Position numbers and translations under genes: made by a program. Shown here piece by piece: positions 8,641 to 45,781 of a stretch of DNA of 49,271 bases (positions are counted from its first letter, which is position 1; the number at the start of each line of letters is the position of its first letter). This stretch comes from Pseudomonadota bacterium (GTDB lineage: Bacteria; Pseudomonadota; Gammaproteobacteria; Acidiferrobacterales; Acidiferrobacteraceae), in assembly GCA_021777535.1 (NCBI GenBank), contig JAJYDN010000008.1, positions 28,846 through 78,116 on the forward strand, given 5' to 3'. Under the pieces are notes generated by a model. The model made no database searches. It had not been told where the DNA came from and worked only from the letters and a program-made list of their open reading frames with translations.

Positions 8641-8678
8641 GAGTGCCTCCTTGGCTTGCGGCTGAAAGACCTTGATGG

Positions 8679-8704
8679 GGCCGCTTGCGCGCAGGACAGC
8701 GGCC
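8679..8704 (-). terminator. Hairpin between hypX and xfp
   Basis: GGCCGCT and AGCGGCC form a perfect 7-bp stem with a 12-base loop in the 126-base gap after hypX. There is no T-run, so it may be a weak terminator, a processing site for the long operon, or simply chance in GC-rich DNA. Confidence 0.25.
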
Positions 8705-8766
8705 GCACGACTGCAGTCCACCCGGCTCCGCGGCAGGCCACCGGAAGCCCCCCAAACCTCCGTCCC

Positions 8767-15301: not shown

Positions 15302-15309
15302 TTCCGTCG

Positions 15310-16514: not shown

Positions 16515-16541
16515 CAGGCCTCCGTACCCACGGGCACCGGT

Positions 16542-18284: not shown

Positions 18285-18295
18285 GTTCGGGTCTC

Positions 18296-25761: not shown

Positions 25762-27135
25762 TTACGAACGGGCGCCCATGAAAGTCACATATTCGAGATC
25801 GGCAAAATCCCGGTCGAGAAGAGCAAGACCCGCTGCGTCGGCAATCAATAATGACGCCATGAACCCCGCGCCATAGGCAAACGGGCCAATCCACAGCGTG
25901 ACCGCCGTGAGGATGACGTTGCCGGCAAGGAAGATGCTCACGAGCAGCAGGCTGCGCAGCTGCCGGTCCAGATAGAAATACACATTCAGGATGCTCATGA
26001 AAAGCAGCTGCAGGCTTACACCCACCACGTCGAAATCAAAAATGTGTGTATAGCCCATCTTGTATCCAAGGAGCCAAAGCAGCTGCCGCCCGAACGCCAC
26101 GCTCACAAGGACGACCGTCCCCTGGACCTTGGCGATCTCCAGGAAGCCCCGGCGCGCCGCCTGCACCATGCCGTTTTTTGCAGCCGCGATCTCCGCGTAA
26201 ACGCCCCCTTCCCGGATCGCCCGGTAGAAGCGGTCGTAGGCTTCGACAAAATCGGTCTCCAGGCGCATGAGGAAGACGGCGAGGCCCGGTATGATGAGAA
26301 GATACGAAAGGAAGATCGGGCCATCATAGAGCGGTGAGGCGCGCAGAGGCCCCAGTACCCGCCCGCCCGTTTGCGGATCCCACCAGAAAAGAAGCTTGTC
26401 CGCCCACACGCCCATATTGAAGAACAATCCGACAGGAACCAGCATCCATGCGGGGCGCACCGAAAATGCTGCCGCCGGCCAGTTCACCTCGCCCGGATAC
26501 TGAGCGATGACGAGGGCGGCAAGCATGATGAGCAAAATCGCCTGACCTGCATCGAAGGCGGCCAGATCCCCGTCGATGCCATAACGGGTCAGGTAGATCC
26601 CGAGCATGACGATACTGCCGTAGGCCAGCAGATAGGAAAGGGACAGTCCCTTGTAGTTCTTGATGCTGGTCGCCATGATCGTCAGGATCCATACGTTGCT
26701 GAGTTCGATGAATCCCGCCTCCATGAGCAGCGTGTAGCCGCGCCCCATGTGGCGGAAAAATAACAGCTCTGCCACCGCGGCAAACACGGCGCTCACGAGC
26801 GTCGTTACGAGCAGCATGAACATCAGCGTGGACACCACGGCAGTGCGTTCGCCGGCAAACAGGAGGTCTGCGATCACCCGCGTATAGAGCAGCTGTCCAA
26901 GCCCCGTGAGCATGAGGGAGAAGGCGATCAAATACGTGACAGATACCTGGAAGGCGGAAACGGCAAGCTGCTGGTGCGCGGCGTGCGCAGACAGTATACC
27001 GACGAACAGCACGCCCGCGATCGACATGATCCACGGGGCCGACGCTATGAGGCCCGCGTAGCCATAGGCGCGCAACAAGCTGAAGTAACTGTCATCGCGC
27101 AGAATCTTGCGCAACTCAAAGCCGATACCGGCCAT
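25762..27135 (-). CDS. pelG: PelG, inner-membrane Pel polysaccharide transporter
   Basis: A 457-residue integral membrane protein with about twelve hydrophobic helices, of the MOP/Wzx-like flippase class that moves Pel across the inner membrane. The start MAGIGFELRKILRDDSYFSL is the distinctive PelG N-terminus. ATG at 27135 shares a base with the pelF stop (TGATG). Last gene of the pel operon. In Pseudomonas PelG acts in a complex with PelD, PelE and PelF. Confidence 0.93.
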   Translation of the reverse strand: MAGIGFELRKILRDDSYFSLLRAYGYAGLIASAPWIMSIAGVLFVGILSAHAAHQQLAVSAFQVSVTYLIAFSLMLTGLGQLLYTRVIADLLFAGERTAVVSTLMFMLLVTTLVSAVFAAVAELLFFRHMGRGYTLLMEAGFIELSNVWILTIMATSIKNYKGLSLSYLLAYGSIVMLGIYLTRYGIDGDLAAFDAGQAILLIMLAALVIAQYPGEVNWPAAAFSVRPAWMLVPVGLFFNMGVWADKLLFWWDPQTGGRVLGPLRASPLYDGPIFLSYLLIIPGLAVFLMRLETDFVEAYDRFYRAIREGGVYAEIAAAKNGMVQAARRGFLEIAKVQGTVVLVSVAFGRQLLWLLGYKMGYTHIFDFDVVGVSLQLLFMSILNVYFYLDRQLRSLLLVSIFLAGNVILTAVTLWIGPFAYGAGFMASLLIADAAGLALLDRDFADLEYVTFMGARS

Positions 27136-28637
27136 CAGGCAGACCCCGCGCCAAGGTGGTAGAGCTCTCTGTAGGCCGCAAACATCTGCTCCTCCTGATA
27201 GTGGCGCTCGACTCGCGCGATGGCGGCCTCACTCATCGCGCGCCAGCGGGCGGGCTCGCTCAGGATGCCCTGGATTCCCGCGGCAAGCGCCTCCGGATTG
27301 GCGATGGGCGCCACGGCACCGGCCGGCCCGAGCGCGGCATCGTCAGGTCCGCCGCCGAAGATGAGTTCCCGGCAGGCGCCGACATCGGTCGCCACCACGG
27401 GAACGCCGGCGGCGAAGCTCTCGAGAACGGTGAGCGGCAAACCCTCGCTGATCGAACTCAGCACAGACACACGTATGTCATGCAGAATGTCGATGGTGGA
27501 ACGATGCCCGAGAAGCCGGATGCGCCCCTCGAGGCCGAGACGTCCGATAAGCGCCTGGCATTCCGCGGAGTACTCCCGGTCCTCGCCGGTCGGCCCCACG
27601 ACCCACGCCTCGAGTTCGCGATCACGATCCAGCAAAATGTTTGCGGCGCGAATGAAGGTCTTGATGTCCTTGATCCGCACCACGCGGCCGATGAGGGCAA
27701 TGACAGGTCGCCTTAACTCGTAGGACCTGCGGGCGGAGGAGAAGGATCGCACTGCGATGCCATTGGGCACGGTAGACAATTTTCCGGCATGTGCACCGTC
27801 TTTGATCTGGAGCGCGCGGGCGCCCGCGTAGAGATTGACGATGCGTTCGGCCTGCTGGTAGGCAATGTGCGCAAGGGTCTCGAAGAAGCGGATCCACAAG
27901 AAACGGATGGACTCGCTGGCGCCTGCATGGGCGAATCCGTCCTTGCGCGCACCGGCCCATGACGCCAACATGAGATCGATGCGCCGCTCCTTGGTATAGA
28001 TACCGTGTTCCGACACGATCAGGCGGCCGCCGTGACGATGGCTGAGAAGGGCCCCGAGATACCCCGCATACCCGGTCGACGCGCTATGAAAGATGCGCGC
28101 CCGCGGCGCGTTCTTGACGATCTTTTCGATGACCCACAAAGGTCCGTGCATCCCCCGCAGCGTCCAGAAATAATCGGCAAAAGGCGGCTTTTCCTCGATC
28201 TTCTCGTAGGCCTCGAGGATCCATTCCCAGGCTCCGCGCGCCTGGTAGAAGTCCGCCTCCGTGAGCCCTGTGTTTTGGTTCAAGGATTCGAGCGGCACTC
28301 TCCCGCACCCGTCGCAGGCCACGCGAAATGCACTATGAAGGGTACGGACACGTACGCCATCGATCCGGCCAGCGGGCCGTTCCCGGCGCGGACGGGGCGT
28401 GGTATCGGGCACATACAGAAAATGCTCTTCGTAATGGACGACGTTGCCGGCCAGCGCGTAGGCGTGGCCATCGTAGTCGGCCGGATCGCTGCCGAGAAAG
28501 ACGATGCCAAAACGCACGTCCGGGAAACCAACGATAAGCCGGTTGATCCACGATGACACGCCACCGCGGACATAAGGATATGTTCCCTCGAGAAGAAACA
28601 GCACATCCACCGAGCGCGCCGTGCGTGCCGCCATCAT
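27135..28637 (-). CDS. pelF: PelF, GT4 glycosyltransferase for Pel synthesis
   Basis: The 500-residue cytosolic enzyme polymerises the Pel polymer from UDP-sugar. DVLFLLEGTYPYVRGGVSSW is the N-terminal signature of PelF, and SEGLPLTVLESFAAGVPVVA near 410-430 is the GT4 donor-site E-x7-E motif. ATG at 28637 overlaps the pelE stop (ATGA); a second ATG follows immediately and either may be used. The open frame extends to 28973 over pelE, without similarity. Length is normal for PelF. Confidence 0.93.
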   Translation of the reverse strand: MMAARTARSVDVLFLLEGTYPYVRGGVSSWINRLIVGFPDVRFGIVFLGSDPADYDGHAYALAGNVVHYEEHFLYVPDTTPRPRRERPAGRIDGVRVRTLHSAFRVACDGCGRVPLESLNQNTGLTEADFYQARGAWEWILEAYEKIEEKPPFADYFWTLRGMHGPLWVIEKIVKNAPRARIFHSASTGYAGYLGALLSHRHGGRLIVSEHGIYTKERRIDLMLASWAGARKDGFAHAGASESIRFLWIRFFETLAHIAYQQAERIVNLYAGARALQIKDGAHAGKLSTVPNGIAVRSFSSARRSYELRRPVIALIGRVVRIKDIKTFIRAANILLDRDRELEAWVVGPTGEDREYSAECQALIGRLGLEGRIRLLGHRSTIDILHDIRVSVLSSISEGLPLTVLESFAAGVPVVATDVGACRELIFGGGPDDAALGPAGAVAPIANPEALAAGIQGILSEPARWRAMSEAAIARVERHYQEEQMFAAYRELYHLGAGSA

Positions 28638-29536
28638 GATCCCGGGTCCTGCCAGAAACCGGCGCTTGCCCCATAGCGCGGCGACAGGCGCAGCGACGGC
28701 AGACGCGCCATCAGGCCCCGCACCGAAGAAAACTTGCCCAATTTCAGGTAGGCGGCGGCCAAGTGCGGTGCCACGAGGTACTCGGGCAACCCCCGGGACC
28801 GCGCCACATCCAGGCTCTGGCACGCCTCGAGCGATGCGCCGGATTCGAGCTCGGCTAGGGCCTGGAGCAGTGCAAGCGAGGGCCGCGCGCAAGACAGCGT
28901 ACCGGCCTCTGCGGGGGCCGCCGCTGCCGTGCCGGCGGCGGCCCCCTGGTGGGCGATGCTCCACGCAAGCCACGCCCGCTGCTCGACGAGCCGGTCGCGG
29001 ACAATCCTCTGCGCATCGGGGGTCCGCTGCAACTGTTCGCCAAGGCGGATCATGAGCTGCGTGTTGTCGTGCTCGCGCCGGTCGAGGGTACTGTGGGCAA
29101 GCAGACGCACCTCTTCGGCAGGATCGGCAAGCGCCAAGTTCAGCAGACGATATTGCTCGGGATGGCGGGGCGCAAGAATACGCGAAACGGCGTGGATGCG
29201 ATCTTCCTCGCGCGCGGCGTGGCTCAAGCGGGCGGCTATGCTGCCCATCGCCTCGCGAGAGGGCTTGACGGGATCACTCCAGGCATACTCCGGCAAGACA
29301 ATGGGCTGCATGTCGGGCGGAATGCGCCTGCGGGCCGCACTGCGGCAATAGAGGGCGTAAAGAGGTGCAATCAGGGGGCCATACAGCGGTATGAGCGTGC
29401 CGAGGGCGACACTGATGGCAGCCCCCACCCGGTACGGACCCGAACCGCGCCCGGGCAGGGCCATGTACGCAGCGGCCATGCCGATCATCCAGTACGACAC
29501 ATAGGCGCCCACCAGGAAGCCCGCCGAATCCATCAT
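28634..29536 (-). CDS. pelE: PelE, membrane-anchored helical-repeat protein
   Basis: A 300-residue protein with two N-terminal hydrophobic segments (about 5-27 and 38-62) and a cytoplasmic helical part. Matches PelE by place between pelD and pelF and by its layout of two membrane helices plus TPR-like repeats; sequence conservation of PelE is generally low, so position is the main support. In Pseudomonas PelE bridges PelD and PelF. Start ATG at 29536 overlaps the pelD stop (ATGA). Confidence 0.82.
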   Translation of the reverse strand: MMDSAGFLVGAYVSYWMIGMAAAYMALPGRGSGPYRVGAAISVALGTLIPLYGPLIAPLYALYCRSAARRRIPPDMQPIVLPEYAWSDPVKPSREAMGSIAARLSHAAREEDRIHAVSRILAPRHPEQYRLLNLALADPAEEVRLLAHSTLDRREHDNTQLMIRLGEQLQRTPDAQRIVRDRLVEQRAWLAWSIAHQGAAAGTAAAAPAEAGTLSCARPSLALLQALAELESGASLEACQSLDVARSRGLPEYLVAPHLAAAYLKLGKFSSVRGLMARLPSLRLSPRYGASAGFWQDPGS

Positions 29537-30807
29537 GCCGCCTCCTGCGCGCCAACTATGCGGCGAAGACGCGCCACCGGGTCGACACCGGTGAGGTCGT
29601 GATCGGCTACGGACAAAAAGTCCCGGTACCGCTCATCCCCGAAATGCGCAGCGAGCGACCGGTGGGCGCGCTCGATATGACCATCGATCATCGCCGGCCC
29701 GGCGAATGGCAACAGGAATAAAACGCAGCTAAGCGTGCCGGCACGATGGACCCAGACCATGTCCATGCCCCGGCACAGACCCGCAAGCCGCCGGACAACG
29801 CCTTCGGCGTCCTGCCTGGCGCGCACCCGATAACTGAGAAGCCGGCTGCCGACACCGAGGCGGCCCTCCAGTGCCGAAAGCCGCATGTAGCCTGCGGCAA
29901 ACTCGACTGGACAATCCGGCCACTCGGCAAGCACCGCAAGACCGCGCTCGATGGCCACTTGCTGCTGACACACGTATTGGAATATTGCCTCGATCACGAG
30001 AAGGTTATCCTTGTGGAGAGACAGGAAGGCCATATCGCTCACCGCAAGCACGATGACTCCACCACGCGGATCGGCAAAGACATGAATCGCGAGATAATGG
30101 CGCCCGTCTGCGTGGCTGACATCGGCGAGCGAACGGCTCTGCCCGTGCGTGAGCGCACTGCGGCACACGGGATCATCCATGCGCAGGGGTTCCTGCGCGC
30201 CGAGAACCGCCAGCATGACGGGCGTCCGTCCTGCCACAATCCGGTAGAGGCCTGCCGTCTGCACACCACTCATCTGGCTCAGGAGATAGAGCACCTGGTC
30301 GGCGACCTCGGCCGTCAACGCGCCCCGGCTCCTGGCAAGGCGGCCATTCAACGCCTCGAGTGCACCCCGCAGAGACATCGGCTTGTAAATCAGATTCTGT
30401 TCGAGGCGTTCATGAGAGATGCGGATCACATGCAGATCCTCCGTCAGGCGGCGCATCCGCTCCTCCATGACATCGCAACGCGCACGGGTGCGCGCCGAAC
30501 GCATGACCCATGAATCGGCATATTCTCCGCACAACATCGTGACAAGAATGAGGCCGGTGGCGGCGGGCACCCAAAGGAACGCCGGTTGGGGCGCCCACGC
30601 GAGACTCGACAACAAAACGCCAAGCGACACGGCGCCGGCACCCTTCCCGTAGCGCAGCGCGACGAGAATCAGTGGTAACACAAGCCATGGAAACGGCGCG
30701 CCCAGCAACAACGGATCCCTTGGCGAAAGCATTCCGCTCACGAAAAGCGCAGAGGCGGGGATGACAACCGCCTCCAGCCAGCGCAAGTGGCTCGCATGGA
30801 TTCTCAT
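29533..30807 (-). CDS. pelD: PelD, c-di-GMP receptor of Pel synthesis
   Basis: The 424-residue inner-membrane protein switches on Pel synthesis when it binds cyclic di-GMP. N-terminal hydrophobic helices lie at about 12-100, a coiled-coil-like linker at 105-140, a GAF domain at about 150-290 and a degenerate GGDEF domain at about 300-424. The catalytic GGDEF is lost (RAGTLS at 355-360), but the RxxD inhibitory-site motif is kept as RGMD (346-349), at the same distance before the degenerate motif as in active cyclases. So it should bind but not make c-di-GMP. ATG at 30807 overlaps the pelC stop. Confidence 0.92.
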   Translation of the reverse strand: MRIHASHLRWLEAVVIPASALFVSGMLSPRDPLLLGAPFPWLVLPLILVALRYGKGAGAVSLGVLLSSLAWAPQPAFLWVPAATGLILVTMLCGEYADSWVMRSARTRARCDVMEERMRRLTEDLHVIRISHERLEQNLIYKPMSLRGALEALNGRLARSRGALTAEVADQVLYLLSQMSGVQTAGLYRIVAGRTPVMLAVLGAQEPLRMDDPVCRSALTHGQSRSLADVSHADGRHYLAIHVFADPRGGVIVLAVSDMAFLSLHKDNLLVIEAIFQYVCQQQVAIERGLAVLAEWPDCPVEFAAGYMRLSALEGRLGVGSRLLSYRVRARQDAEGVVRRLAGLCRGMDMVWVHRAGTLSCVLFLLPFAGPAMIDGHIERAHRSLAAHFGDERYRDFLSVADHDLTGVDPVARLRRIVGAQEAA

Positions 30808-31328
30808 CGGTCAAGCACCCGGCTTATCAAGCGGCGGATCAGGGTCTGGCCGAGCGTGCTCGTGCCGCCCTCGGAAAAACTGCCCCCGCTGCCGCTCGCC
30901 ACACCGCTCCAGACAACCTTGTCGTCACGCAAATCCACCACCCATAGGGTAAGTCCCACGACCGGCTGTGCATTGATGCCGGCCCGATAGCTCCACTCAT
31001 CGACCGACCCGGCGAGCCCATACGCGGCCCCTGCTGCGTGCGCCGCCTGCAGGGCCGTCTGATAGTGGTGACCCCAGTTCCCGCCGAGCAATTGCTGTGC
31101 ACGGCTTGCGTGCGGCAGGTTGCCGACTACGGATTCGCCGTCCGCCTGCAGAATCGCCGCCGCGGTAAAGGCGGCCCGCTCGTTGGCGAGCGGTGTCTCG
31201 GTGTTGTTGGCAAATGGCAGCACCGCCCATCGGCTGTGCGGGGCGATATGGGGAGGATGGGCACCCTGCACCTGCAGGCTTGCGCAGCCAGCGACCAGCA
31301 ACAAAGATATCCATAATGCCTTTTTCAT
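30804..31328 (-). CDS. pelC: PelC, outer-membrane lipoprotein of Pel export
   Basis: The 174-residue precursor has a lipoprotein signal (MKKALWISLLLVAGC; lipidated Cys15). WAVLPFANNTETPLANERA and the later VVDLRDDKVVWSG fit PelC, whose dodecameric ring beneath the outer membrane guides Pel to the PelB pore. ATG at 31328 is 21 bases before (downstream of) the barrel gene's stop at 31350. The stop overlaps pelD. Confidence 0.9.
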   Translation of the reverse strand: MKKALWISLLLVAGCASLQVQGAHPPHIAPHSRWAVLPFANNTETPLANERAAFTAAAILQADGESVVGNLPHASRAQQLLGGNWGHHYQTALQAAHAAGAAYGLAGSVDEWSYRAGINAQPVVGLTLWVVDLRDDKVVWSGVASGSGGSFSEGGTSTLGQTLIRRLISRVLDR

Positions 31329-31349: not shown

Positions 31350-32843
31350 TCATGAGAAGTACACGGAATAGCTTGCCTCCACCGTGCGCTCCGTTTGTGC
31401 CAGGACATTGCGGCCCTGTCCCTGGCTGAATGTGAGACGGAATTGATCTGCTCCGCGCACGGGCGTCCGCACTCCGGCGGCGATTTCATACTGCAGACCA
31501 AAACGTGTACTTTCGTAGAGGCTCGCTGCCACATAGGGGGACCACCCCGCTGCGAGCGCTGCATGCGTAGACCCCAGGAAGGCGCTCAAGCCATAATCGG
31601 CCCGGCTTGCGGCCAGCACCGAACCCGGCGTGCGCGCCAGGGGCCCGAGGCTCTGGGCCAGCACGCCGGTGAGCGTGGCACTGCGGGTTATGGCGTGATA
31701 ATCCGCAAACGGCCCGATCTGCCAGGCGAGAAATCCAAAGTGGCCAGGGCGGTACACACCGACTCCCGCGTAGCGGTCGGTGCCAATCGTGACACCGTCC
31801 TGTCCCTGATAAGCCGTCCAGCCTGCATAGACATGGCCCGCCCACCCGCGTCCGTGATAGGCGGCTTGTACGAAGGCATCATTTTTCATGCCGGCCACGA
31901 CCAGGGCGGGACTCTGGCGGCTGAAGCGGTGAAGACCGAGGTGCCCGCGAACGTGCAGGGCACCAGACCACCAGCGCGCCGACACAATGCCCGTGACGAC
32001 ATGACGCCATGCGTGTCGTGTACCCCACGCCGTCTGGGCCTGCCAGTGCGGGCCGTGGACAAAGACGCCGGCTTCGGCCATCTGCTGTCCTGCCGGAATG
32101 CCCGAAAGCAGTGAGCCTGCGCCCGCACGTTGCCAGAGGGCGCGTTCCCGGATCAGGATACCCGCGTCGGGACTCATGTAGACGCGGCCACGCGCGTCCT
32201 CGTCACCGTACACATAGTGGCCAAAGGACAGCCACTGCGTCCCGACCGTGACATGGCTCGCATCAAAATCGATCGTGCGCAGGAAAAAACGCCGGTCTGC
32301 CCGGTCGAGCGGATTATCCTCCACGGCGCGCAATGCGACGCTCTGCGCGCGCACATAATCACCAAGGAAAAAGTAGGCGCGCGCAGCCCCCTCATCCGAC
32401 AGCGCCCGGGGGTGCGCGGCAAGCCGCGCGATCGCACCGATATCCTCGTCGTGCAAAGCAAGTTCCAGGGTGATCCAGGGGGGCAAGGGGCGCGAACTGC
32501 GCAGCGCCAGTGCGCGGGCAAGCGCAAAGTGTCCGTGCGCCATGCTCCAGACAATGGCCGCGCGCACATGCCCTTTACGGGCTGCAGCCAACAGCACACG
32601 CAAACTCACGTTGCCTCCCGAACCCTGGGCCGCCAAGGCCCGCGCAAGCAGCGCCAGTGCATCGGGGCGCACCTTATGTGTGCCCTTGCGCGCGCCCGCC
32701 GCAGCGTGACGGCGCGCCCGCCGGACCCGTGGCGACTGGATGTGGGCATGGGCCGGCCAGGGCGCCCCTCCACCCAGCAACGCAACAAGCGCCAGCACCG
32801 CCCGGCGCCCTGCGGATCCGTCCTGGCCGGCATCGGGCGTCAT
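31350..32843 (-). CDS. pelB: PelB C-terminal part: outer-membrane beta-barrel as a separate protein
   Basis: A 497-residue protein with its own signal peptide (hydrophobic stretch at about 15-33 ending PAHAH). Residues about 45-185 are helical, repeat-like; from about 195 to the end there are alternating short strands rich in aromatic and glycine residues, ending EASYSVYFS, with a terminal Phe-Ser typical of an outer-membrane barrel. The order (TPR protein, barrel, then pelC) makes it the export pore domain of PelB, which in Pseudomonas is one chain of about 1190 residues. ATG at 32843 overlaps the preceding stop (ATGA), so the split is not a simple frameshift error. Confidence 0.8.
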   Translation of the reverse strand: MTPDAGQDGSAGRRAVLALVALLGGGAPWPAHAHIQSPRVRRARRHAAAGARKGTHKVRPDALALLARALAAQGSGGNVSLRVLLAAARKGHVRAAIVWSMAHGHFALARALALRSSRPLPPWITLELALHDEDIGAIARLAAHPRALSDEGAARAYFFLGDYVRAQSVALRAVEDNPLDRADRRFFLRTIDFDASHVTVGTQWLSFGHYVYGDEDARGRVYMSPDAGILIRERALWQRAGAGSLLSGIPAGQQMAEAGVFVHGPHWQAQTAWGTRHAWRHVVTGIVSARWWSGALHVRGHLGLHRFSRQSPALVVAGMKNDAFVQAAYHGRGWAGHVYAGWTAYQGQDGVTIGTDRYAGVGVYRPGHFGFLAWQIGPFADYHAITRSATLTGVLAQSLGPLARTPGSVLAASRADYGLSAFLGSTHAALAAGWSPYVAASLYESTRFGLQYEIAAGVRTPVRGADQFRLTFSQGQGRNVLAQTERTVEASYSVYFS

Positions 32844-34468
32844 GGCACAGCCCTCCCCGCCGAATGCCGCAAAAGTTCCTCGGTGGCACGCCGGATGACC
32901 ATCTTGCGCAAGGCCCAGGCGGACCGGGGTAGACCGCGCTGGCCAAGTTGGTCTGCACGACTCAAGGTGGAAGGCAATGAGGAAGACTTACGCGGGCCCT
33001 GCAGGGATCCCCGTTCATGGGCGACCTGCGTGGCATTGGCAACCGCCTGGCTCAACTGCTTGCCAAATCGCACGTGGACGGCGAGCAAGGCACGCAGGTC
33101 GGCGACCTGCCTGTGATCGATGAGCGTCCAGACCAGATCCTGGCCGATAACCGGATCACCGCCGTCGAGCGTCAGCGCCTGCGCATAAGCTGCGGCCGCC
33201 ACCTGCGGATGATGCGTCTCCGCGCTAAGCGCGGCGGCGGCAATCCAATAGGACGCATACTGGCGAAGGTGCCTGGCTTTGCGGGCCGGCACAGATTTCA
33301 AAAGGCGGGCGAGAGCGGACCAGTTGGCCTCCTGCACGGCAAGCGACGCACCCTCAAAGAAAAAGATCGACAAATGGAACTCCCGCCAGGCCTGAAGGGC
33401 CACCGCCAGGGCCGCAGCCGGAACGCGGTGACGGGTAACCGCGATCAGACGCTGCAGGTCGTATTGGCCGGCGGCACCGAGCAAATACAGGGTTTTTTCG
33501 GCATAAAGGGTCTCCCGCGCGTTGTCTGTATCCCAGGCGAGCACGGCGTACAGATGCCAGAACGGCACATCGTTCAACGTAGCCTGCCCTTGGCTCGCTT
33601 GCATGGCGCGCAAAGCCTGGTCCGGATGTCCCTCGTAGGCCAAAAGCCGCGCCTCGCGCAAGGCAATCCGCGGTGTCGTGCCATACACCAAAGACAGCTC
33701 CCGGAGTGCCGCGACACTCTGACCGAACACGCCCATTTGATCATCGAAATAGGCTTCTTCCTTGAGCAAATAGCGATTCGGCCGTATCCGCAACGCCCGC
33801 TCGATCTCGGCGACAGCATGATGCGGTTCGCCCAGTTCATCGTATGCACCAAGGAGAATCTTCCATTCCCCTGTGTCGAGTTGCGCCCTGGCACCCGGGC
33901 GCGCCAGATCCCGGATGACAATGTCCGGGCGCGCCAGCGACGAGGCCAGAAGGATCACCTTGGCAAGCGCCTTGTGATCTCCGTGCCGGAAGAACCACTG
34001 CTCTTGCCGCAGAACCTGCTCACGCTGGCCGAGCCAGGTGGCAACCCGGATGAGCCTGTGCCGCCACAATGCGCCAAGCGGGCGGAGACTGACGGCCGTC
34101 AGGGCAAGCCGGTATGCCTGGATCAGGCGATGGGTCTGGACGAAGGCCCGGAAGGCCAGACGATAGAAGGGTCCATTGTAGGGAGCGGGATAAAGGGAGA
34201 CTCGCAACGGCGGCCGATACCAGGAAGGCGACACGCCGCCTTGCTTGAGATAAGCAAATCCCTTGCCGGTCTTCAGGCTGCGGGCGAGTGCGTCGGCGAA
34301 GGCGTTTGCGTTTTCCTTGTGCGCCACATACGCGCGCCGCCATCGTGCATCGTAGTGCGACAAGCTTCCGGGCGCCTGCCACCACGACACGGACGCCGCA
34401 GCCCAGACGGGAACCGAAAAGCCCAGGCAGGCGATGAGCGCGCCCTTTGCGATATGCCTTGCACTCAC
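32840..34468 (-). CDS. PelB-like periplasmic TPR protein (middle part)
   Basis: A 542-residue protein with an N-terminal signal (VSARHIAKGALIACLGFSV then PVWAAA) followed entirely by helical repeats, for example DDQMGVFGQSVAALRELSLV and PRIALREARLLAYEGHPDQA, which resemble TPR units. No barrel and no catalytic motif is visible. By place between PelA and the barrel it corresponds to the PelB TPR scaffold that binds PelA in the periplasm. The GTG at 34468 has AGGAGG 5 bases upstream and overlaps the previous stop (GTGA). It may keep its signal as a membrane anchor or be released. Confidence 0.78.
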   Translation of the reverse strand: MSARHIAKGALIACLGFSVPVWAAASVSWWQAPGSLSHYDARWRRAYVAHKENANAFADALARSLKTGKGFAYLKQGGVSPSWYRPPLRVSLYPAPYNGPFYRLAFRAFVQTHRLIQAYRLALTAVSLRPLGALWRHRLIRVATWLGQREQVLRQEQWFFRHGDHKALAKVILLASSLARPDIVIRDLARPGARAQLDTGEWKILLGAYDELGEPHHAVAEIERALRIRPNRYLLKEEAYFDDQMGVFGQSVAALRELSLVYGTTPRIALREARLLAYEGHPDQALRAMQASQGQATLNDVPFWHLYAVLAWDTDNARETLYAEKTLYLLGAAGQYDLQRLIAVTRHRVPAAALAVALQAWREFHLSIFFFEGASLAVQEANWSALARLLKSVPARKARHLRQYASYWIAAAALSAETHHPQVAAAAYAQALTLDGGDPVIGQDLVWTLIDHRQVADLRALLAVHVRFGKQLSQAVANATQVAHERGSLQGPRKSSSLPSTLSRADQLGQRGLPRSAWALRKMVIRRATEELLRHSAGRAVP

Positions 34469-35283
34469 GGTGCCTCCTGGAAGCGGAGGGCCAACGTGAG
34501 CACCGACGCGGCGATCCCGGGGCGGCCAGCCGCCATCGCCGTACGCGCCACACACAGCACAATCGCGCGGTCTGCCGGCCAGCTCGCAATACGCTTAAGC
34601 GCCCTTTGTGCCTGCGCCAAGGCCTTTACGGCCCCCTCGGATCCCTCGAGATAGGCCACACCCTGCCGAAACAGCCGACCCCGGCGGCCGGCCCCCTGAG
34701 CCCGGCCGGCAAGGCGCAGACACAAACGTCCCGCCCGGCGCGTCTGGCCGTCTGCCGCCCACACCTGCGCGACCCGATATTCATCATGAATGGCAGCGGC
34801 GGGGTCGCCATGCCCCGCGAAGGTCCACGCGCGTGCCGCCAGGGGCAGGCGCCCGAGCGCAAGCGCACCATGGGCGAGGGCACGCCACTGCGCGCGATTC
34901 CAGCCGCCAAAAGCGATGAGCGCCGCTGTCTGGCGCACGAGCTGCCTGCGCGCCCGCGGCCACCTTGGATTGTCGCGCGCAAGGCTGAACGTCTGCGCCC
35001 AGTCCATCCGCCACGACAGCCAGCGCGCGGCCCGGAAACCCGGCACACCGGGTTCACGCAATAGCGGCGCCAACTGCTCCCTGGCGGCAAAAAACTCCCC
35101 GCTCTTCTCCAGGATCCGTGCGCTTTCCAGGCGGGGCGTCACCTCCGTTGCCGTGACGGCGTGGCCGCCATCGGGCCGCCACCCCTCCATCACCGCAAGC
35201 CCCATGACGATCACACAAACACCAACGACGAAGACCCCGAGGACGCCGGGCGTCAAAAGCCGCCGGTCGTGCACCGCGCTCAT
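34465..35283 (-). CDS. Membrane-anchored helical protein between pelA and the PelB-like genes
   Basis: A 272-residue protein with one hydrophobic helix at about 10-30 (LGVFVVGVCVIVMGLAV) and an alpha-helical, arginine/alanine-rich periplasmic part with TPR-like character (ESARILEKSGEFFAAREQLA). It takes the place of the N-terminal membrane segment and first repeats of PelB. Homology is not certain from sequence alone. ATG at 35283 overlaps the pelA stop (ATGA), and its stop overlaps the TPR gene. The frame upstream of 35283 lies over pelA and is spurious. Confidence 0.68.
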   Translation of the reverse strand: MSAVHDRRLLTPGVLGVFVVGVCVIVMGLAVMEGWRPDGGHAVTATEVTPRLESARILEKSGEFFAAREQLAPLLREPGVPGFRAARWLSWRMDWAQTFSLARDNPRWPRARRQLVRQTAALIAFGGWNRAQWRALAHGALALGRLPLAARAWTFAGHGDPAAAIHDEYRVAQVWAADGQTRRAGRLCLRLAGRAQGAGRRGRLFRQGVAYLEGSEGAVKALAQAQRALKRIASWPADRAIVLCVARTAMAAGRPGIAASVLTLALRFQEAP

Positions 35284-38042
35284 GCATGCGCTCCACAGCG
35301 CACATCCAGCGTCACCCGATTCCCGCGTGTGCCGACCACGCCACCGGGCGCCGGTACCGTCTTGCCATTGGCCAGCACGCGGCAACCCGCCACGCCGGCA
35401 AGCCGCAGCCACACCGGCACCGTGCCGCGCAGCTGCGCCGAAAAACCCCGGCCCTGGCGGCGGAAGTGACTGATCGGCGCGTTCGCGTCGACGATATAGG
35501 CCACTCTCGTGATACGCGCAGACAAGGCGAGATAGGCGGGCGAGTGCCCATCCAGATGCACATACCAGTTGCCGTTCGGACTTTTGTCGAAGCCAGCCAC
35601 ATGGCGGCTGCGCATCAGATTCGGCACACCGAGCCCGGGCGGCATGCGCAGTTCACGCAGCGCATGCGCCCCGATGATCACGAATCCGCCGCTGGCGCGG
35701 GCGATGTGGACATGGAAATAATCGAGAACGATACGGGCATAGTCGGCCACATAGATGGGCGTAATCGGCCGCTTCAAAACCCAGGCATAGACCTTTTTCA
35801 AGGCAGCGAGCGAAGCAAGACGCGTGGCCGAATACCAATGGGTGTAGATGTCGATGGGCTTCAGGCGATGCGGCCTGTCCGTCATCCTGAAGGTCTGGAT
35901 GACGTTCTCAAAACCCCAGAAAGGGCCGCGCCAGAAATTGGTGAAGTAATCCTCGTTGGCATCGGGCGCAAACACCTGCAGATAAGGCCCCCGGAAAATG
36001 CCAAGCGGAGGCACTGCCGTGATGCTCGAATCCCTGCGACTGATGAAACTGTTGCCGCCGTTGACGTTCATGAGGCCGGCCTGGTAGGCAAGCCCCAAAA
36101 CCTGGGCATCCGGTTCGCAATCGCCAGACCACTGGTCGATGACGACCTTCTTGCCTTGCGGGACGAGATGCGTATCGATCCATCGCGCGGCGCCTACCGC
36201 TTCCATGTAGGGATTGAAGTGATAATGGGGGACCGGAAGATTAATGCCGGGATAACGGCGGCCGGCTTCGATCGCGGGCCAGTTGAACGGGTGCGACCAC
36301 ATGTGCGAGCCGATCTCAACATAGGGCAGACGGAAAATGTCCCGCGCAATCCGGGCCCCGAGCGGAGCCATCGCCGGGAACATCCCCGCCTTCCCCGGCA
36401 ACAGATCCCCGACGATGACAGAACCGGTAAATGGCAGCCGATAACGCAGGAGAATGCGGTGAAAATACGTTTCGCCTGCGATGTGATAGGGAGGGAACTC
36501 CGTCCGGCTCAAAAAGCCATCGCCGTCGGCCTGCGCCATGAAAAGCCGCCGCCCGCTCTCCGTGGTGGTATCCGGGACCGGCATCTTGGGCAGGCGCAAT
36601 GCCGCGCAATACAAGGCAAAAGGATCGACGAGCCAGCGCGTCACCTTGTTGGGCAGCGTCGTCAGCACATACGGCGCAAGCACGTAGCCGCCCCATGACG
36701 TGATCGCCGCCGCATCCTCCTGCTTCCCGCCGCGCGTCAGCGCAAGCCACACCTGACTGCCCGGCGGCGCCTGGGCGACCGTAAAATCCCGCGCCCGCGC
36801 CCGTACCGGCATTTCATACCCGAACCCGGCGGATTCCGCGCGCACCTGGACCGGTCCCATTGCGCGTCCGCTTTGCAGCCGCACCCCCAGCGTATGCGCA
36901 AAACGGTGATTGCTGCCTCCGGCGACGCCGTTCATGAACAAAACCGGAACACCCGCGGCGCGGCAGTTTCCAAGAAATTCTATCAACGCGGATGCGTTGG
37001 GCGTCGATTGGCCGTCGCTCCACACGATCACGCCCGCGTATTGCCCCGGACGTGGCTCTGCAACGTTGTCGCCCAGGCGGTGCATGACCGGGACGTAGCC
37101 GAGATACTCGAGCGGCATGATTGCGCACAAGAACGCCGTGCTGTCATCACGGGGCTTGTTGCTCCCATACAAAACCAGAACACGCCGCGGCATGGGTTCC
37201 TCAAGGCCCGCCCCCACTGCCGTGAGATCGCCATTCGTCACGTACGGGATGAAGCCCTGGCGCGCGATGCGCCGCGCGTCCTGCCACCATCCCGCGCGCT
37301 GCATGCGGGTCGGCAGGTAGTCGATGACGATGACCGGCATGCGCTGGGCGCCGATGCGTTTCAATTGCGCAAGGAGTGCTGCGCGCGTTGCATGCGCCAC
37401 GGTCTCGTAGCGCTGCCGGGCCTCATTCCAGGCGTGATAGAGCCCCTCCGCCGTCACCGCTACCAGATCCTTGCGGATGCGTGGAAAGACAGAAAATCCC
37501 CGGTTGGCAATCAGCTTCACGCCCGGATAGCGCTTTGCCAGGCTGCGCACAAAGGCGACAAGCCCGCTTCTCTGGGCCGCAAGATGTCTGCGGCCATGGA
37601 CGACGAGTTCATAGGAATTCAGCGTGTCCAGGAAAAATCCCCGGTAGCCTGCCTTCCATGCCGGTCCGGCCACATGCCGCAAAAGAAAGCGGCGGCAACG
37701 GCGCTTGGCCAGATTGATGATGGTTCCTCCCCAACTCATGTTCCGCCCCATTGCGCACACCTTGGGCAGTTGCCCATAGAGGGGATTCCCGGGCACCGAT
37801 TCACCGACACTGAGGTACGCGAATACAGTCTGCTTGGGGGCGAAATCGCGCGGCAGACGCTTCAGGCCCGGATTCACCACAACCCAATCGAAGTCACGGA
37901 ACGCCCGTGGCGCCATTCCGCTTCCGTAATAGAAGGCCACGCTCGGCGCCGCCACCGCCGCTGTCACCCACACAGAGAGACAGAACGCAAGCAGCGTGTG
38001 CCATCTGGCGCGCAGCCACACCCCTCCCCGTGGCCTGCTCAT
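35280..38042 (-). CDS. pelA: PelA, Pel hydrolase and deacetylase
   Basis: A 920-residue periplasmic enzyme with an N-terminal signal (about 1-32). Residues about 35-275 form the TIM-barrel glycoside hydrolase; Asp139 (GFFLDTLNSY) and Glu199 (VTAEGLYH) are likely active-site acids. About 285-400 is a Rossmann-like domain (RRVLVLYGSNK). About 495-790 is the deacetylase: Asp506/Asp508 in QADGDGF and the metal-binding pair His580/His584 in GSHMWSH. A C-terminal beta domain follows. In Pseudomonas PelA trims and de-N-acetylates Pel for export through PelB. First gene of the operon; start at 38042 is followed by a good signal peptide, though the RBS (GAGG) is very close. Confidence 0.93.
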   Translation of the reverse strand: MSRPRGGVWLRARWHTLLAFCLSVWVTAAVAAPSVAFYYGSGMAPRAFRDFDWVVVNPGLKRLPRDFAPKQTVFAYLSVGESVPGNPLYGQLPKVCAMGRNMSWGGTIINLAKRRCRRFLLRHVAGPAWKAGYRGFFLDTLNSYELVVHGRRHLAAQRSGLVAFVRSLAKRYPGVKLIANRGFSVFPRIRKDLVAVTAEGLYHAWNEARQRYETVAHATRAALLAQLKRIGAQRMPVIVIDYLPTRMQRAGWWQDARRIARQGFIPYVTNGDLTAVGAGLEEPMPRRVLVLYGSNKPRDDSTAFLCAIMPLEYLGYVPVMHRLGDNVAEPRPGQYAGVIVWSDGQSTPNASALIEFLGNCRAAGVPVLFMNGVAGGSNHRFAHTLGVRLQSGRAMGPVQVRAESAGFGYEMPVRARARDFTVAQAPPGSQVWLALTRGGKQEDAAAITSWGGYVLAPYVLTTLPNKVTRWLVDPFALYCAALRLPKMPVPDTTTESGRRLFMAQADGDGFLSRTEFPPYHIAGETYFHRILLRYRLPFTGSVIVGDLLPGKAGMFPAMAPLGARIARDIFRLPYVEIGSHMWSHPFNWPAIEAGRRYPGINLPVPHYHFNPYMEAVGAARWIDTHLVPQGKKVVIDQWSGDCEPDAQVLGLAYQAGLMNVNGGNSFISRRDSSITAVPPLGIFRGPYLQVFAPDANEDYFTNFWRGPFWGFENVIQTFRMTDRPHRLKPIDIYTHWYSATRLASLAALKKVYAWVLKRPITPIYVADYARIVLDYFHVHIARASGGFVIIGAHALRELRMPPGLGVPNLMRSRHVAGFDKSPNGNWYVHLDGHSPAYLALSARITRVAYIVDANAPISHFRRQGRGFSAQLRGTVPVWLRLAGVAGCRVLANGKTVPAPGGVVGTRGNRVTLDVRCGAHA

Positions 38043-38705: not shown

Positions 38706-40055
38706 TCAATGTTGATGCTCCCGCGCGCGGTGCGCCTGCACAACACAGACCCGGTTGCGGCCCTGCTCCTTGGCTTCGTAGAGCCCACGGTCTGCAAGGC
38801 GCAGCAGTTTCTCCACGCTGGCTGCCGAACCGCGCAGTTCCGTTACGCCGATGGATAAGGTGACCCGGCACACGCCGCCCTCTTCCAGCGGGAGCGATGC
38901 ATGCGCAACCGCCTCGCGAATTCTGTCGGCCGCATGGACAGCGCGGGACAGGTCGGCTTCCGGCAAGACAACCGCGAATTCCTCGCCGCCGATGCGGGCC
39001 AGGATATCTGCGTCGCGCAACACCTGCCGGCATGCGCGCACGACATGCACCAGAACTTGGTCACCCACCTCGTGTCCATATTGGTCGTTGACGGACTTGA
39101 AATGATCGACATCGATCAAGAGCAGCGAAAGCGGATGCGCAAAGCGCCTGGCGCGCGCGATTTCGCGATCCGATTCCACCATAAAATAGCGTCTGTTTAC
39201 CGCGCCAGTCAGGGCATCAATGCGCGCTTGCCTCTCCAGTTCGTGCTCGAGAAGCTTTCTCTCCGTTATATCGGTAAATGACGCCACTACCGCATAGGGC
39301 TTCTGTTCGCCGTTACGGACTAGCGGCTGGGAATTGACGGCCACCCATCTCCTCTTGCCGTCCGGCATATCCACGCGCATGACCACGCCGCGATAAGACT
39401 TTCCGGTACGCAGCGCCGCCACGGCCGGGCGCTCTTCCGGAGGAAAAGGTGTCCCGTCTTCCTGTGACACGACCCAGCGGGGATCGAGCGGCACGCGGCC
39501 CCCAATCTGATCAACGGTCAGTCCCAGGATTCTTTCCGCGCTTGCATTGCTCGCGCGGATCACACCGTCTGCATCCATCAGAATGACGCCCTCGGAAAGC
39601 GCGTCGACGACCGACCGGTACCGCACTTCGCTTTCGCGCAGCGCCTCCTCCATCTCCTTGCGCCGCGAGATGTCGAATACGGTGCCGCGACTGACCAGGA
39701 ACCGGTGCGAATCGTCGTACACGACGGTGGCATTCAGCAGTGCTGCGAATCTCGATCCATCCTTGCGGCGCATCAGATACTCGACATCCCGCACAAAACC
39801 CCGCTCCATGAAGGCCGCGAAATTTGCCTGAAACATCGGGACGTCTTCGGACGCAATGACATCCGAAAATTTAAAGCGGTTGACGACTTCTTCCCTGCTA
39901 TAGCCAAGCCACGACAGCTCGGTGTCATTTATGCCCACGAAAACACCATCCTTGTCGAGGGAGTGATAGCCGACCGGCGCGTTGTTATACAGATCCTCAA
40001 AATTATGCAGCGCGCGCTCCATCGTCCTGCCCTCACATCCATCATCTTCTGTCAC
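38706..40055 (-). CDS. Diguanylate cyclase with two PAS domains
   Basis: A soluble 449-residue signalling enzyme. PAS 1 spans about 20-130 (NNAPVGYHSLDKDGVF, then FDISRRKEME), PAS 2 about 145-270 (ESEVRYRSVVDALSEGVILM, then FTDITERKLLEHEL) and GGDEF about 280-440. The active site is intact (GGEEF, 356-360) and DVDHFKSVNDQYGH has the metal and substrate residues. RDAD (347-350) is an inhibitory RxxD site, so product feedback is expected. Both GTG 40055 (GGGGA upstream) and ATG 40022 (GAGG 8 bases upstream) are good starts. It lies upstream of pelA on the same strand, 663 bases away, and may supply c-di-GMP to PelD (inference). Confidence 0.92.
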   Translation of the reverse strand: MTEDDGCEGRTMERALHNFEDLYNNAPVGYHSLDKDGVFVGINDTELSWLGYSREEVVNRFKFSDVIASEDVPMFQANFAAFMERGFVRDVEYLMRRKDGSRFAALLNATVVYDDSHRFLVSRGTVFDISRRKEMEEALRESEVRYRSVVDALSEGVILMDADGVIRASNASAERILGLTVDQIGGRVPLDPRWVVSQEDGTPFPPEERPAVAALRTGKSYRGVVMRVDMPDGKRRWVAVNSQPLVRNGEQKPYAVVASFTDITERKLLEHELERQARIDALTGAVNRRYFMVESDREIARARRFAHPLSLLLIDVDHFKSVNDQYGHEVGDQVLVHVVRACRQVLRDADILARIGGEEFAVVLPEADLSRAVHAADRIREAVAHASLPLEEGGVCRVTLSIGVTELRGSAASVEKLLRLADRGLYEAKEQGRNRVCVVQAHRAREHQH

Positions 40056-40720: not shown

Positions 40721-41515
40721 CTATGCGGCCTGTCGTTTCTCGAGGACAAGAGGCGGATTCCAGTGAAGAATCTCCATCCGGCCATCATGGTGTTCGACCA
40801 AGGCGGTACAACTCTCCACCCAATCACCGCTGTTGTAATACTGAACGGCAGCGATCTGTTTCTTCTCCGCGTGGTGAATGTGACCGCATATCACGCCATC
40901 ATAGTGGCGCCGCAAGGCCTGTTCGGCAAGCAGCGACTCATAATCGTTGATGAATTGGACAGCCCGCTTGACATGATATTTCACATAGGCGCTCAGCGAC
41001 CACTGATAACGAACCCCGAGGACACGGAACAGCCTCTGCAAGGAATGATTTAGCCACAGCAGCGCCGTGTACCCGTGATCCCCCAGATGCGTGAGCCAGC
41101 GGGCATAGCGCATGGCCGCATCGAACTGGTCACCATGGATGACCCAGAACCGCCGCCCATCCACCGTCTGATGAACGCACTCCCCCATGATCTCGATGTC
41201 TCCGAACGGAATGGCGGAATTGTCCGTCAGGATGAGCTCCGAAAGAAACTCAAATATGGGATCGTGGTTGCCGCGAATGTAGGACACCCTTACCCCATTG
41301 CGCGCCATCCGCAGAATTTTCTGGATGACCGTGTTGTGGCTGCGGGGCCAGTACCAGCGCCTTTTCAGCCGCCACAGATCGATGATGTCGCCCACCAGAT
41401 AAAGCTGCTCGCATGAATGCTCCCGCAGGAAATCGAGAAGCCTGTCCGCCTGGCAACCGCGGGTACCAAGATGCACGTCCGAGATGAAAATGGCACGGTA
41501 CCGGGCATCATTCAT
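40721..41515 (-). CDS. LpxH-like metallophosphoesterase
   Basis: A 264-residue calcineurin-type phosphoesterase. All metal-binding blocks are visible in order: FISDVHLGT, LVGDIIDLW, YIRGNHD, VIHGDQFD and GVICGHIHHAE. This set and length fit the UDP-2,3-diacylglucosamine hydrolase (LpxH/LpxG-like) group, in a branch often sitting beside GT4 glycosyltransferases. A role in lipid A or glycolipid synthesis is likely but the exact substrate is unknown. ATG at 41515 has GGAG 8 bases upstream. It follows the glycosyltransferase by 54 bases, probably as one transcript. Confidence 0.85.
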   Translation of the reverse strand: MNDARYRAIFISDVHLGTRGCQADRLLDFLREHSCEQLYLVGDIIDLWRLKRRWYWPRSHNTVIQKILRMARNGVRVSYIRGNHDPIFEFLSELILTDNSAIPFGDIEIMGECVHQTVDGRRFWVIHGDQFDAAMRYARWLTHLGDHGYTALLWLNHSLQRLFRVLGVRYQWSLSAYVKYHVKRAVQFINDYESLLAEQALRRHYDGVICGHIHHAEKKQIAAVQYYNSGDWVESCTALVEHHDGRMEILHWNPPLVLEKRQAA

Positions 41516-41569
41516 GGGAATATCTCCACATCCCATAGCTCGGGGACACCCCGATAACCCGGGAAATCT

Positions 41570-42754
41570 TCAGGGTTCCTGGGTGGTCCATCGCACGGCC
41601 GCCTCTTCGTCGATCAGGGCCGCATAGGTCCGGCCCAGACGCCGCGACATGGCATCCTGAGACAGGCGCGCGGCAAGCGCGCTTGCCTCCATCGCGAGCC
41701 GGGCGCGCAATTCGGGATCCCGCAGAATGGTAAGGCAGATCGCGCTGAAGACGTTCGGGTCCGCCGTACTGCCACGGGTTCCCTGGCGGCTTACGAGAAG
41801 ATCGGCGACGCCGAGCGCCGGGATCGCCACCACCGGCAATCCGGCGGCAAGGGCCTCGGCGAGAACCATGCCCTGCGTCTCTGTCTGTGAGGCGAAGACG
41901 AAGAGGTCCGCAGCCCGGTATACGTCCTTGAGTGTCGTCTGGCGATCGACGTAACCCAGGAAGCGCACCACATCCGTAAGGCCCTTTTCACGGCTGTAGG
42001 CCTCGAGAGCGGGCCGTGCCGGACCATCACCCGCGATCAGAATCAGGAGGTCGGGGATCACCGCATGCAGTTTGGCGACGACGTCGAGGAGAAAGGGAAT
42101 ATTTTTCTCTGGGGCGAGCCGTCCTGCGTAGAGGAGAACGGGCCTTTTGGGGTCTATGCGGTTGCGGCTACGAAAGGAAATGCCGTCCCCGGCGTAGCAC
42201 GAGGACACGTCGATACCGGTCGGAATCACCTCTGCACGGGCCCGCACACCATAGGCCGCAAGCACCCGCTCCATGGCGGCAGAAGGGATGATGACGGCAT
42301 CTGCGGCATTGCACTGGCGACGCGAGACGAAGCGCACCAAACAGCGCCCCCAGGATTTGGGTATCCAGGGGTAATAGTGTCCGATGTAAGCCTCGAAGTA
42401 GGTGTGATAAGAAATGACGACCGGAATCTCCCACTTGCGGGCGAGATACAGGCCGTAAAAATGCGCCATGAAGGGCGTCTGGATGTGGATCACGTCATAG
42501 CCGCGCCGCCTCAGGCGTTTTTGCAGGCGCGCGCGGCCCGTGAACCGCATGATCCGCTCTTCCGGATACAGGCCGATCCGCCAGGCCCTGACATGAAAGA
42601 CACCGGGCCCTTGTGTGTCGCCGTCACCGTATGCGGGGATCAGGAGATCAACCTCATGACCGAGCCGGGTAAGCCCGGCGCGAAAACTCTGGATGGAACT
42701 CGCCACCCCACTGATGCGAGGGAAATATGTATCGGACACCATCAGGATCCGCAT
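41570..42754 (-). CDS. GT4 family glycosyltransferase
   Basis: A 394-residue cytosolic glycosyltransferase with two Rossmann domains. The N-terminus MRILMVSDTYFPRISGVASS binds the acceptor; IPTGID, LLYAGRLAPEKN and SQTETQGMVLAEALAAGLPV (donor E-x7-E type region) are typical of alpha-mannosyl- or glucosyltransferases acting on lipids. With the LpxH-like phosphoesterase it may make a membrane glycolipid. The acceptor cannot be read from sequence. Start 42754 fits the family N-terminus. Confidence 0.88.
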   Translation of the reverse strand: MRILMVSDTYFPRISGVASSIQSFRAGLTRLGHEVDLLIPAYGDGDTQGPGVFHVRAWRIGLYPEERIMRFTGRARLQKRLRRRGYDVIHIQTPFMAHFYGLYLARKWEIPVVISYHTYFEAYIGHYYPWIPKSWGRCLVRFVSRRQCNAADAVIIPSAAMERVLAAYGVRARAEVIPTGIDVSSCYAGDGISFRSRNRIDPKRPVLLYAGRLAPEKNIPFLLDVVAKLHAVIPDLLILIAGDGPARPALEAYSREKGLTDVVRFLGYVDRQTTLKDVYRAADLFVFASQTETQGMVLAEALAAGLPVVAIPALGVADLLVSRQGTRGSTADPNVFSAICLTILRDPELRARLAMEASALAARLSQDAMSRRLGRTYAALIDEEAAVRWTTQEP

Positions 42755-44272: not shown

Positions 44273-45313
44273 CTACGCGCGGCGCTCGACCCGGGTCTTC
44301 CACAGGGCATAGGAGATAAGCCAGGACAGCGCAAACATCGACACAATGATATAGCCGATGGCATTGAATGACAGTCCTGCGATGGCGGCGGCGATAACAC
44401 CGTGCAGACCGAATTCCCCGATGAAAACCTGCGCAAGCTCAATCGAGCCGATCACCAGCGCCACCGCGACCGACAGCGAAGTCGTCGCCATGTTATAGAA
44501 GATCCGGCGCACCGGATTGAAAAAGGCCCAGCCGTAGGCGCGGGTCATAAGAACCCCATCCGCCGTGTCCATCAGGGACATGCCGGCAGCAAAAAGGGTC
44601 GGCAACGCGAGTACTGCGCCGACGGGGATCTGGCTTGCCGCAGCACCCCCCGTCAACGCCAGTAGCGCGATCTCGGACGCCGTATCGAAACCCAATCCAA
44701 ACAGGAAGCCGACCGGGTACATTTGCCAGCTCCGGTCGATCAGCTTGGTCAGCCGTTGACCGAACAGGCGGTTCAACAACCCCCGCCTGGACAGGAATTC
44801 GTCCAGTCGGGCATGACTATGCGCGGCATGACGCCGCCGCCACACCTGCAACATGCCCAACAGCGCGCCCAGATTGAGCAGTCCAATGAGCCACAGGAAC
44901 AATCCCGAAATGAGCGTGCCCAACACATAGCCAACATTCTCGAGGCCCGGCAGATGGCGCTTGACGAGAGCCGCAGCGAAAGCCGTCAGCGCAGCGAGAA
45001 GGAACACTACCGTCGAGTGTCCGAGGGAAAAGAAGAAGCCCACCCCCAGTGGACCACGCCTTTTCTGCAACATAAAACGCACCGTGTCGTCCACGGCGGC
45101 GATATGATCGGCATCGAAGGCGTGACGCAAACCAAAGAGATAGGCCGATAAACCCAAACCGAGCAAAAGAGGGTGCGCGCCCGCATACGCCAAACAGAGC
45201 CCCCAGCCAAGGACGTGCAAACCCGCGATCGCTGCACCGTAACCCGCCAGCGAACGGCGCTCGGCGCGCGTAAACGGCCCCCCGGACTCCGAAGGCGGCG
45301 TGATTGCATTCAT
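44273..45313 (-). CDS. Nickel/cobalt transporter, NiCoT family (HoxN/NixA type)
   Basis: A 346-residue inner-membrane permease with about eight helices that imports Ni2+ (or Co2+). The signature RHAFDADHIAAVDDTVR (His64, Asp69, His70; H-x4-DH) in helix II and FGLGFDTASEIALL, plus LFAAGMSLMDTADGVLM, are the NiCoT motifs. Nickel is needed by the hydrogenase encoded at 16542-21397, so a supply role is plausible, though it lies 23 kb away. ATG at 45313 has GGGAGGGGAG upstream; the longer frame adds 14 residues without similarity. Confidence 0.92.
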   Translation of the reverse strand: MNAITPPSESGGPFTRAERRSLAGYGAAIAGLHVLGWGLCLAYAGAHPLLLGLGLSAYLFGLRHAFDADHIAAVDDTVRFMLQKRRGPLGVGFFFSLGHSTVVFLLAALTAFAAALVKRHLPGLENVGYVLGTLISGLFLWLIGLLNLGALLGMLQVWRRRHAAHSHARLDEFLSRRGLLNRLFGQRLTKLIDRSWQMYPVGFLFGLGFDTASEIALLALTGGAAASQIPVGAVLALPTLFAAGMSLMDTADGVLMTRAYGWAFFNPVRRIFYNMATTSLSVAVALVIGSIELAQVFIGEFGLHGVIAAAIAGLSFNAIGYIIVSMFALSWLISYALWKTRVERRA

Positions 45314-45781
45314 GCTCTCCCCTCCCGGCCACTCGGATGTAGCATATGACTTCATTCAGGTCAGTGCCACTCCCAAGGCGCACCTTGCCGGTGGTTCCCG
45401 AGGCCGGGCACCCCAAAAAAACCGTGTTTAGCTGCCCACTTTTTGGCCTTGTCAAGGAAGCCGTCCATGACGCCGGTGACACACTCGACACTTCCCTTCT
45501 TCGACCAACATTGACGCAGGCGCCGCTGCACATTACGGCCGGCGGATGACAAACAGCCGCCCGCCGTTTTCTGGTTGCGTCGAAGCCGGGTCCGTCGGAC
45601 CGGTCCGCAGAACAATGGGTACGTTCCGGGCCATTTTGCGCGGCCAAGACAGCGTGATGCCGCCCACGGCAGAGAGCGCCGAAGGCACCCTCTGTTGTCG
45701 CAATGCGCAGACGGACCCTATGTCAGGTGTGTCAGTACGCGCTGGTTAAAACAACATGCGGACTTCGCGCATATTACCCAT
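45314..45781 (-). promoter_or_regulatory. Leader and promoter candidate of the nickel transporter
   Basis: On the minus strand a perfect TTGACA (45450-45455) and a weak GCTAAA (45427-45432) are 17 bases apart, which would give a leader of roughly 105 bases. That leader can form short hairpins (CCCG/CGGG around four bases; CAAGG/CCTTG around TGCG). A frame of 35 codons from 45468 (MDGFLDKAKKWAAKHG) overlies this promoter and lacks a clear RBS. The rest to 45781 shows nothing I can name. Confidence 0.35.

Follow-up and report, generated by a model that had tools for sequence, protein, structure and literature searches.

A pel operon with three genes at the position of pelB

The window, by which we mean the whole analysed stretch of 49,271 nucleotides from a member of the Acidiferrobacteraceae, carries a complete pel operon on its minus strand. 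The genes pelA, pelC, pelD, pelE, pelF and pelG lie in this order, and the position of pelB is taken by three ORFs. The product of pelA (35280..38042) has a GH114 domain. The remaining genes are pelC (30804..31328), encoding a lipoprotein, pelD (29533..30807; PelD_GGDEF, E 6e-19), pelE (28634..29536), pelF (27135..28637; NF038011, E 2e-172; probable start 28637) and pelG (25762..27135; PF16933, E 9e-130). The three ORFs between pelA and pelC, likewise on the minus strand, were named pelB1 (34465..35283, ATG start, 272 aa), pelB2 (32840..34468, GTG start, 542 aa) and pelB3 (31350..32843, ATG start, 497 aa), and their products are called B1, B2 and B3. These coordinates agree with the original prediction, in which three ORFs of 272, 542 and 497 residues replaced one pelB. 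As had also been claimed, each gene overlaps with its upstream neighbour by four bases. The junctions read ATGA between pelA and pelB1, GTGA between the pelB1 stop and the pelB2 start (34465..34468) and ATGA between the pelB2 stop and the pelB3 start (32840..32843). A Shine-Dalgarno-like AGGAGG lies directly upstream of the pelB2 start, and the Shine-Dalgarno-like GGGGAGGG precedes that of pelB3. A second PelB barrel was not found elsewhere in the genome.

Two congeneric genomes share the DNA that flanks pel, in synteny and with 74–77% identity. In the congener G002, a PelG that is 81% identical is encoded at the same place, at a contig edge (L128 3-665). Because of these syntenic flanks and the PelG at the same site, the pel locus is no binning contaminant. 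The congener G001 has a PelG remnant only, adjoining the same flank (L127 1692-1814), and pel has decayed or been deleted there.

Just upstream of pelA, a PAS-PAS-GGDEF diguanylate cyclase is encoded on the minus strand (38706-40055), which is a plausible source of c-di-GMP for PelD. Beyond it, the pel strand carries genes (minus, 40721-42754) for a calcineurin-like phosphoesterase and a GT4 glycosyltransferase. Elsewhere the window holds a hydrogenase cluster with NiFe large subunit, iron-sulphur protein and HypF (12947-19714, minus), a NicO nickel transporter (44273-45355) and, on the plus strand, an ORF of 1328 residues (6340-10326) without Pfam match at E 1e-5.

Correspondence of B1, B2 and B3 to PelB

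B1 begins with an uncleaved N-terminal membrane helix, whose hydrophobic stretch starts at residue 14, and continues with TPR-like helices. The Pfam search gave no match for B1. A B1 profile matched residues 141–241 of P. aeruginosa PelB (9h80) with E 5e-7. Comparison with a Pseudomonas-like single-chain PelB gave E 9e-19, and the N-termini of single-chain PelB proteins were matched by the B1 profile at E 7e-7 to 5e-63. Judged from these matches, B1 is a homologue of the N-terminal segment of PelB (residues ~1–280), comprising the inner-membrane helix and the first TPRs.

B2 consists of a signal peptide (assigned by inspection), a clade-specific element of ~70 aa and a TPR superhelix, which matched TPR_15 in Pfam with E 5.6e-33. 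The membrane helix of B1 and the signal peptide and TPR repeats of B2 had all been predicted and agree with the sequence. The B2 profile matched residues 299–724 of PelB in 9h80 (E 2.5e-26) and also the crystal structure 5wft (E 0.003). A fold search returned many TPR proteins and did not single out PelB; the assignment of B2 to PelB therefore comes from the profile match. By this match, B2 is PelB ~290–725, and its TPR superhelix equals residues ~299–724, including the PelA-binding repeats 9–15. The N-terminal element is strongly conserved, with the pattern WW..PGSL..GKG..YL..GG.SP.WY.PP. Among the loci examined it is confined to the three-gene clade, including the re-fused forms described below. 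In the B2 model it has pLDDT values below 50 (residues 7–40 and 61–84). We regard this element as a candidate dock to B1. Assignment of B2 as a lipoprotein, based on a 'LIAC' lipobox, was rejected, since the position of the cysteine varies among relatives.

B3 matched the PelB C-terminal barrel PF24604 with E 6.3e-26 and 92.1 bits (cut-off 31). A profile search of the ORFs against PelB had been proposed as a check, and all three found their counterpart, B1 and B2 in 9h80 and B3 in this family. B3 is composed of a signal peptide (by inspection), a disordered linker, a helical domain (62–191) and a 16-strand barrel (196–496). Signal peptide and barrel had been recognized before, whereas the helical domain ahead of the barrel had been overlooked. 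The AlphaFold model of B3 (mean pLDDT 70.5; residues 1–63 below 50) shows nine helices followed by 16 strands, and strands 7 and 8 are separated by a short helix that resembles Plug-I. Its best fold match was the PelBC cryo-EM chain 9h80_M (Z 29.1, 368 residues aligned, 3.3 Å), with residues 119–497 aligning to residues 803–1192. Next came PgaA (Z 22.5) and BcsC (Z 20.4), the exporters of PNAG and cellulose, which combine TPRs and a 16-strand barrel in single chains and match the fold of B3 more weakly than PelB does. Residues 119–191 of the model align with 9h80 from residue 803 on, so that B3 contains the alpha-rich module with which PelB docks into the PelC ring. By family match and model, B3 is PelB ~735–1193. 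A PDB sequence search with B3, as single sequence or as profile, did not find PelB; Pfam and structure did. The net charge of the B3 barrel gave no signal of acid adaptation, since the ranges overlap.

A full-length alignment placed the junctions at ~277 and ~725–736 of a Pseudomonas-like PelB. In P. aeruginosa PelB, TPRs 1–19 span residues 69–726, the alpha-rich region starts at 727 and the barrel comprises 876–1193; PelA sits on TPRs 9–15 and 13–19 (PMC12022489). Thus the second cut falls on the boundary between TPRs and alpha-rich region, and the PelA site lies entirely within B2. P. aeruginosa PelB (1193 aa; 9h80, 5wft) and the window have the inner-membrane helix, the TPR scaffold, the alpha-rich module and the 16-strand barrel in common, and in both cases the coding region sits between pelA and pelC. 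However, P. aeruginosa PelB is one chain, whereas the window encodes three, cut near ~280–290 and ~726–735. In addition, B2 has the extra ~70-aa element and B3 an extra signal peptide and linker, and the B2/B3 junction carries ~100 residues that are missing from fused forms. The single continuous polypeptide, a trait of PelB, is absent in the window, and its equivalent is B1, B2 and B3 jointly, none of them singly. In the original prediction, the pore was parted from its TPR scaffold. This applies to the long TPR arm, which is detached, but the pore keeps a terminal helical/TPR module that docks PelC.

Distribution and history of the divided pelB

Layouts of related loci were determined by running iterated profiles over the pel loci. 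In Pseudomonas-type loci pelB is one gene, and one-gene forms were seen in G278, G226, G224, G195, G242, G304, G063, G786 and G661. Within the window's own family, seven genomes have two genes, B1 and a fused B2B3, as do G285, G411, G203, G173 and G429; in most of these, B1 and B2B3 overlap by 4 bases. The three-gene form occurs in the window and in at least 14 other genomes, of the Acidithiobacillaceae, as a survey of acidophile pel operons suggested by the original prediction made clear. Among these are Acidithiobacillus sp. YTS05 (L097, complete chromosome), A. marinus SH, A. concretivorus ATCC 19703, A. montserratensis GG1-14, A. sulfurivorans RW2 and A. ferrivorans DSM 22755, as well as MAGs. 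Most pel-bearing Acidithiobacillus relatives encode PelB as three proteins. The B1/B2 overlap measures 4 bases in all complete three-gene loci, the B2/B3 overlap 4 or 8 bases in three-gene relatives with both genes complete. The signal-peptide-like N-termini of B2 and B3 and the membrane helix of B1 were judged by inspection in the relatives. A PelB barrel above cut-off was detected in 16/398 genomes drawn from the phylum and 17/369 drawn from the class; within those draws only the window and G334 are of the three-gene type. A contig scan of genomes with B3 alone gave no match, and the named three-gene loci were obtained with the B2 alignment as query. It had been asked whether close relatives have one continuous pelB at this place. 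Relatives in the same family have two genes, B1 and a fused B2B3. Hence, within this family, only the B2/B3 split of the window is special, and it is shared with the Acidithiobacillaceae.

The frame shifts at each junction, as would be expected for a frameshifted or mis-assembled pelB or for a decaying pseudogene, and damage is seen in related genomes, since pelB of G008 is rearranged and the congener G001 is down to its PelG remnant. However, junctions, starts and signal peptides are alike in at least 14 genomes at 34–45% identity, and the ~100 extra junction residues relative to fused forms correspond to no single indel. In pairwise comparisons of close three-gene loci, dN/dS was 0.07–0.28 for B1, B2 and B3 in most pairs, and higher (0.19–0.52, at low dS) for the pair G447/G449. 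By these ratios, each of the three genes evolves under purifying selection. Damage is already refuted by the recurrence of the three-gene layout across genomes, and we give it practically no credence. The claim of an evolved split is borne out by this recurrence, which includes the YTS05 chromosome, and by the purifying selection.

Some related loci deviate from these layouts. In G008, a pelB of the two-gene type is broken by rearrangement, with the TPR part (C2:174298-176229) and the barrel (C2:736244-737242) 0.56 Mb apart and query residues 603–649 present in both halves. In L043 (G317, 6751-9815), the pelB2 frame changes near TPR residue 150, possibly through a frameshift, a pseudogene or another split. 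In L125 (G796), a short PelA-like ORF is accompanied by a compact PelB, which measures ~618 residues and has a signal peptide of its own.

Trees were calculated with FastTree from concatenated Pel proteins and carry local supports only. The three-gene loci and two re-fused loci form one clade (support 1.0), and the window locus groups beside A. ferrianus/A. ferrivorans. In both re-fused loci, those of A. ferrianus (G429) and of G173, B2 and B3 are joined, although the loci are nested among three-gene ones. In A. ferrianus ~190 bases were lost, comprising the B2 tail, the stop, the B3 start, the signal peptide and the linker, and the frame was kept. In the G173 fusion, the former signal-peptide region is retained as a linker. 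On these trees, the shortest history is one fission and two fusions. Rooting on G661, a locus with single-chain PelB from another class, groups every split locus in a single derived clade and places the B2/B3 split well inside the two-gene group. We infer a stepwise fission at domain boundaries, from one gene to B1 and B2B3 and then to B1, B2 and B3, the direction of the first step being set by the single outgroup locus G661.

The opposite course, in which separate TPR and barrel proteins were ancestral and later fused into the single-chain PelB of Pseudomonas, would agree with midpoint rooting, which sets the two-gene G285 beside the single-chain group. Fusion demonstrably occurs (A. ferrianus, G173), and alginate export has a separate AlgK and AlgE. 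With the G661 outgroup, however, the split loci are one derived clade, and the B2/B3 split lies deep within the two-gene group, so we consider ancestral pieces unlikely. The proposal that the locus might show how PelB arose found no support, as the split forms are derived, two of them re-fused, and fission is the likelier direction.

Since the genes overlap in different frames, occasional frameshifting at the overlaps might yield a continuous PelB alongside or instead of the pieces. A slippery heptamer was not found at the junctions, and folding of the junction RNA was no better than that of shuffled sequences (z -0.5). Moreover, a fused chain would be broken up by the signal peptides and disordered linkers lying inside it, and the A. 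ferrianus fusion came about by deleting signal peptide and linker. We therefore regard frameshifting as very improbable.

Because the window's own family has another, two-gene type, it is simplest to assume a transfer between these acidophile lineages. The window and Acidithiobacillus loci are thus probably related by horizontal transfer, in one direction or the other. The GC content of the pel region (~65%) shows no anomaly against the window (59–67%), and it is therefore the tree and not the composition that argues for transfer.

A working model of the divided exporter

We conclude, with a probability of roughly 0.8, that the three ORFs are a single PelB, cut at two domain boundaries and made as three co-expressed proteins. 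This reading is supported by the homology of the pieces and their order, by the conserved overlaps and the purifying selection, and by recurrence and re-fusion. B1 would be the inner-membrane-anchored first TPR segment, remaining with the synthase. B2 would act as a soluble periplasmic TPR arm that holds PelA through its PelA-binding repeats, and B3 would provide the outer-membrane barrel with its helical module seated in the PelC ring. Exported separately, the pieces would rejoin non-covalently in the periplasm, TPR end to TPR end, perhaps via the N-terminal element of B2. The assembled path would do the job of single-chain PelB: Pel would leave PelDEFG, pass PelA and reach the pore with its PelC ring.

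P. aeruginosa PelB may be held in the inner membrane by its N-terminal helix, and its TPR arm is long enough to cross the periplasm; an artificial PelB 762–1193, given a foreign signal sequence, arrived in the outer membrane and formed an assembly with PelC, and the barrel alone failed to retain PelC (PMC12141448). A separate B3 is credible because this construct assembled with PelC and B3 keeps the same module, having by nature the layout of the construct. By its gene layout, the three-gene locus is devoid of the covalent inner-to-outer bridge of single-chain PelB. That three non-covalently stacked modules secrete Pel, with the WW..GKG..WY.PP element of B2 as the dock in place of this bridge, is a tentative proposal. 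A. thiooxidans makes Pel, according to work with a pelD mutant and lectins, and the accessible parts of these reports present the pel operon as complete, with no mention of a divided pelB (PMC5852609, PMC7825692). By kinship with A. thiooxidans, three-gene loci may likewise produce Pel.

A TPR protein and an outer-membrane barrel are separate gene products in alginate export as well (AlgK-AlgE, compared here from the literature). In contrast to the window, AlgK is a lipoprotein, whereas inspection of B2 revealed no consistent lipobox, and AlgK-AlgE has no PelC-like ring. The legend of Fig 5(iii) in Bundalovic-Torma 2020 (PMC7112194) names a 'pelB fission' in aquatic thermophilic species. In the portion of that paper available to us, the divided pelB is named in this legend and the text gives no piece boundaries; three genes, Acidithiobacillaceae, re-fusion or a matching to PelA- and PelC-binding modules are not described there. 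We found no description of a conserved three-gene pelB, its boundaries or its re-fusions in the open-licence literature.

The locus bears on the question whether a single PelB molecule has to connect the two membranes, and on which part binds PelA and which nucleates the PelC ring. If the stacked modules secrete Pel, a covalent inner-to-outer bridge would be dispensable for exporters of the Pel class. B2 with PelA and B3 with PelC are ready-made constructs that could be expressed apart and then reassembled. Evolution has cut PelB at the boundaries of these parts, has maintained the division in an acidophile family and has twice closed one of the cuts again, and thus offers an export machine already dissected by nature at its natural joints.
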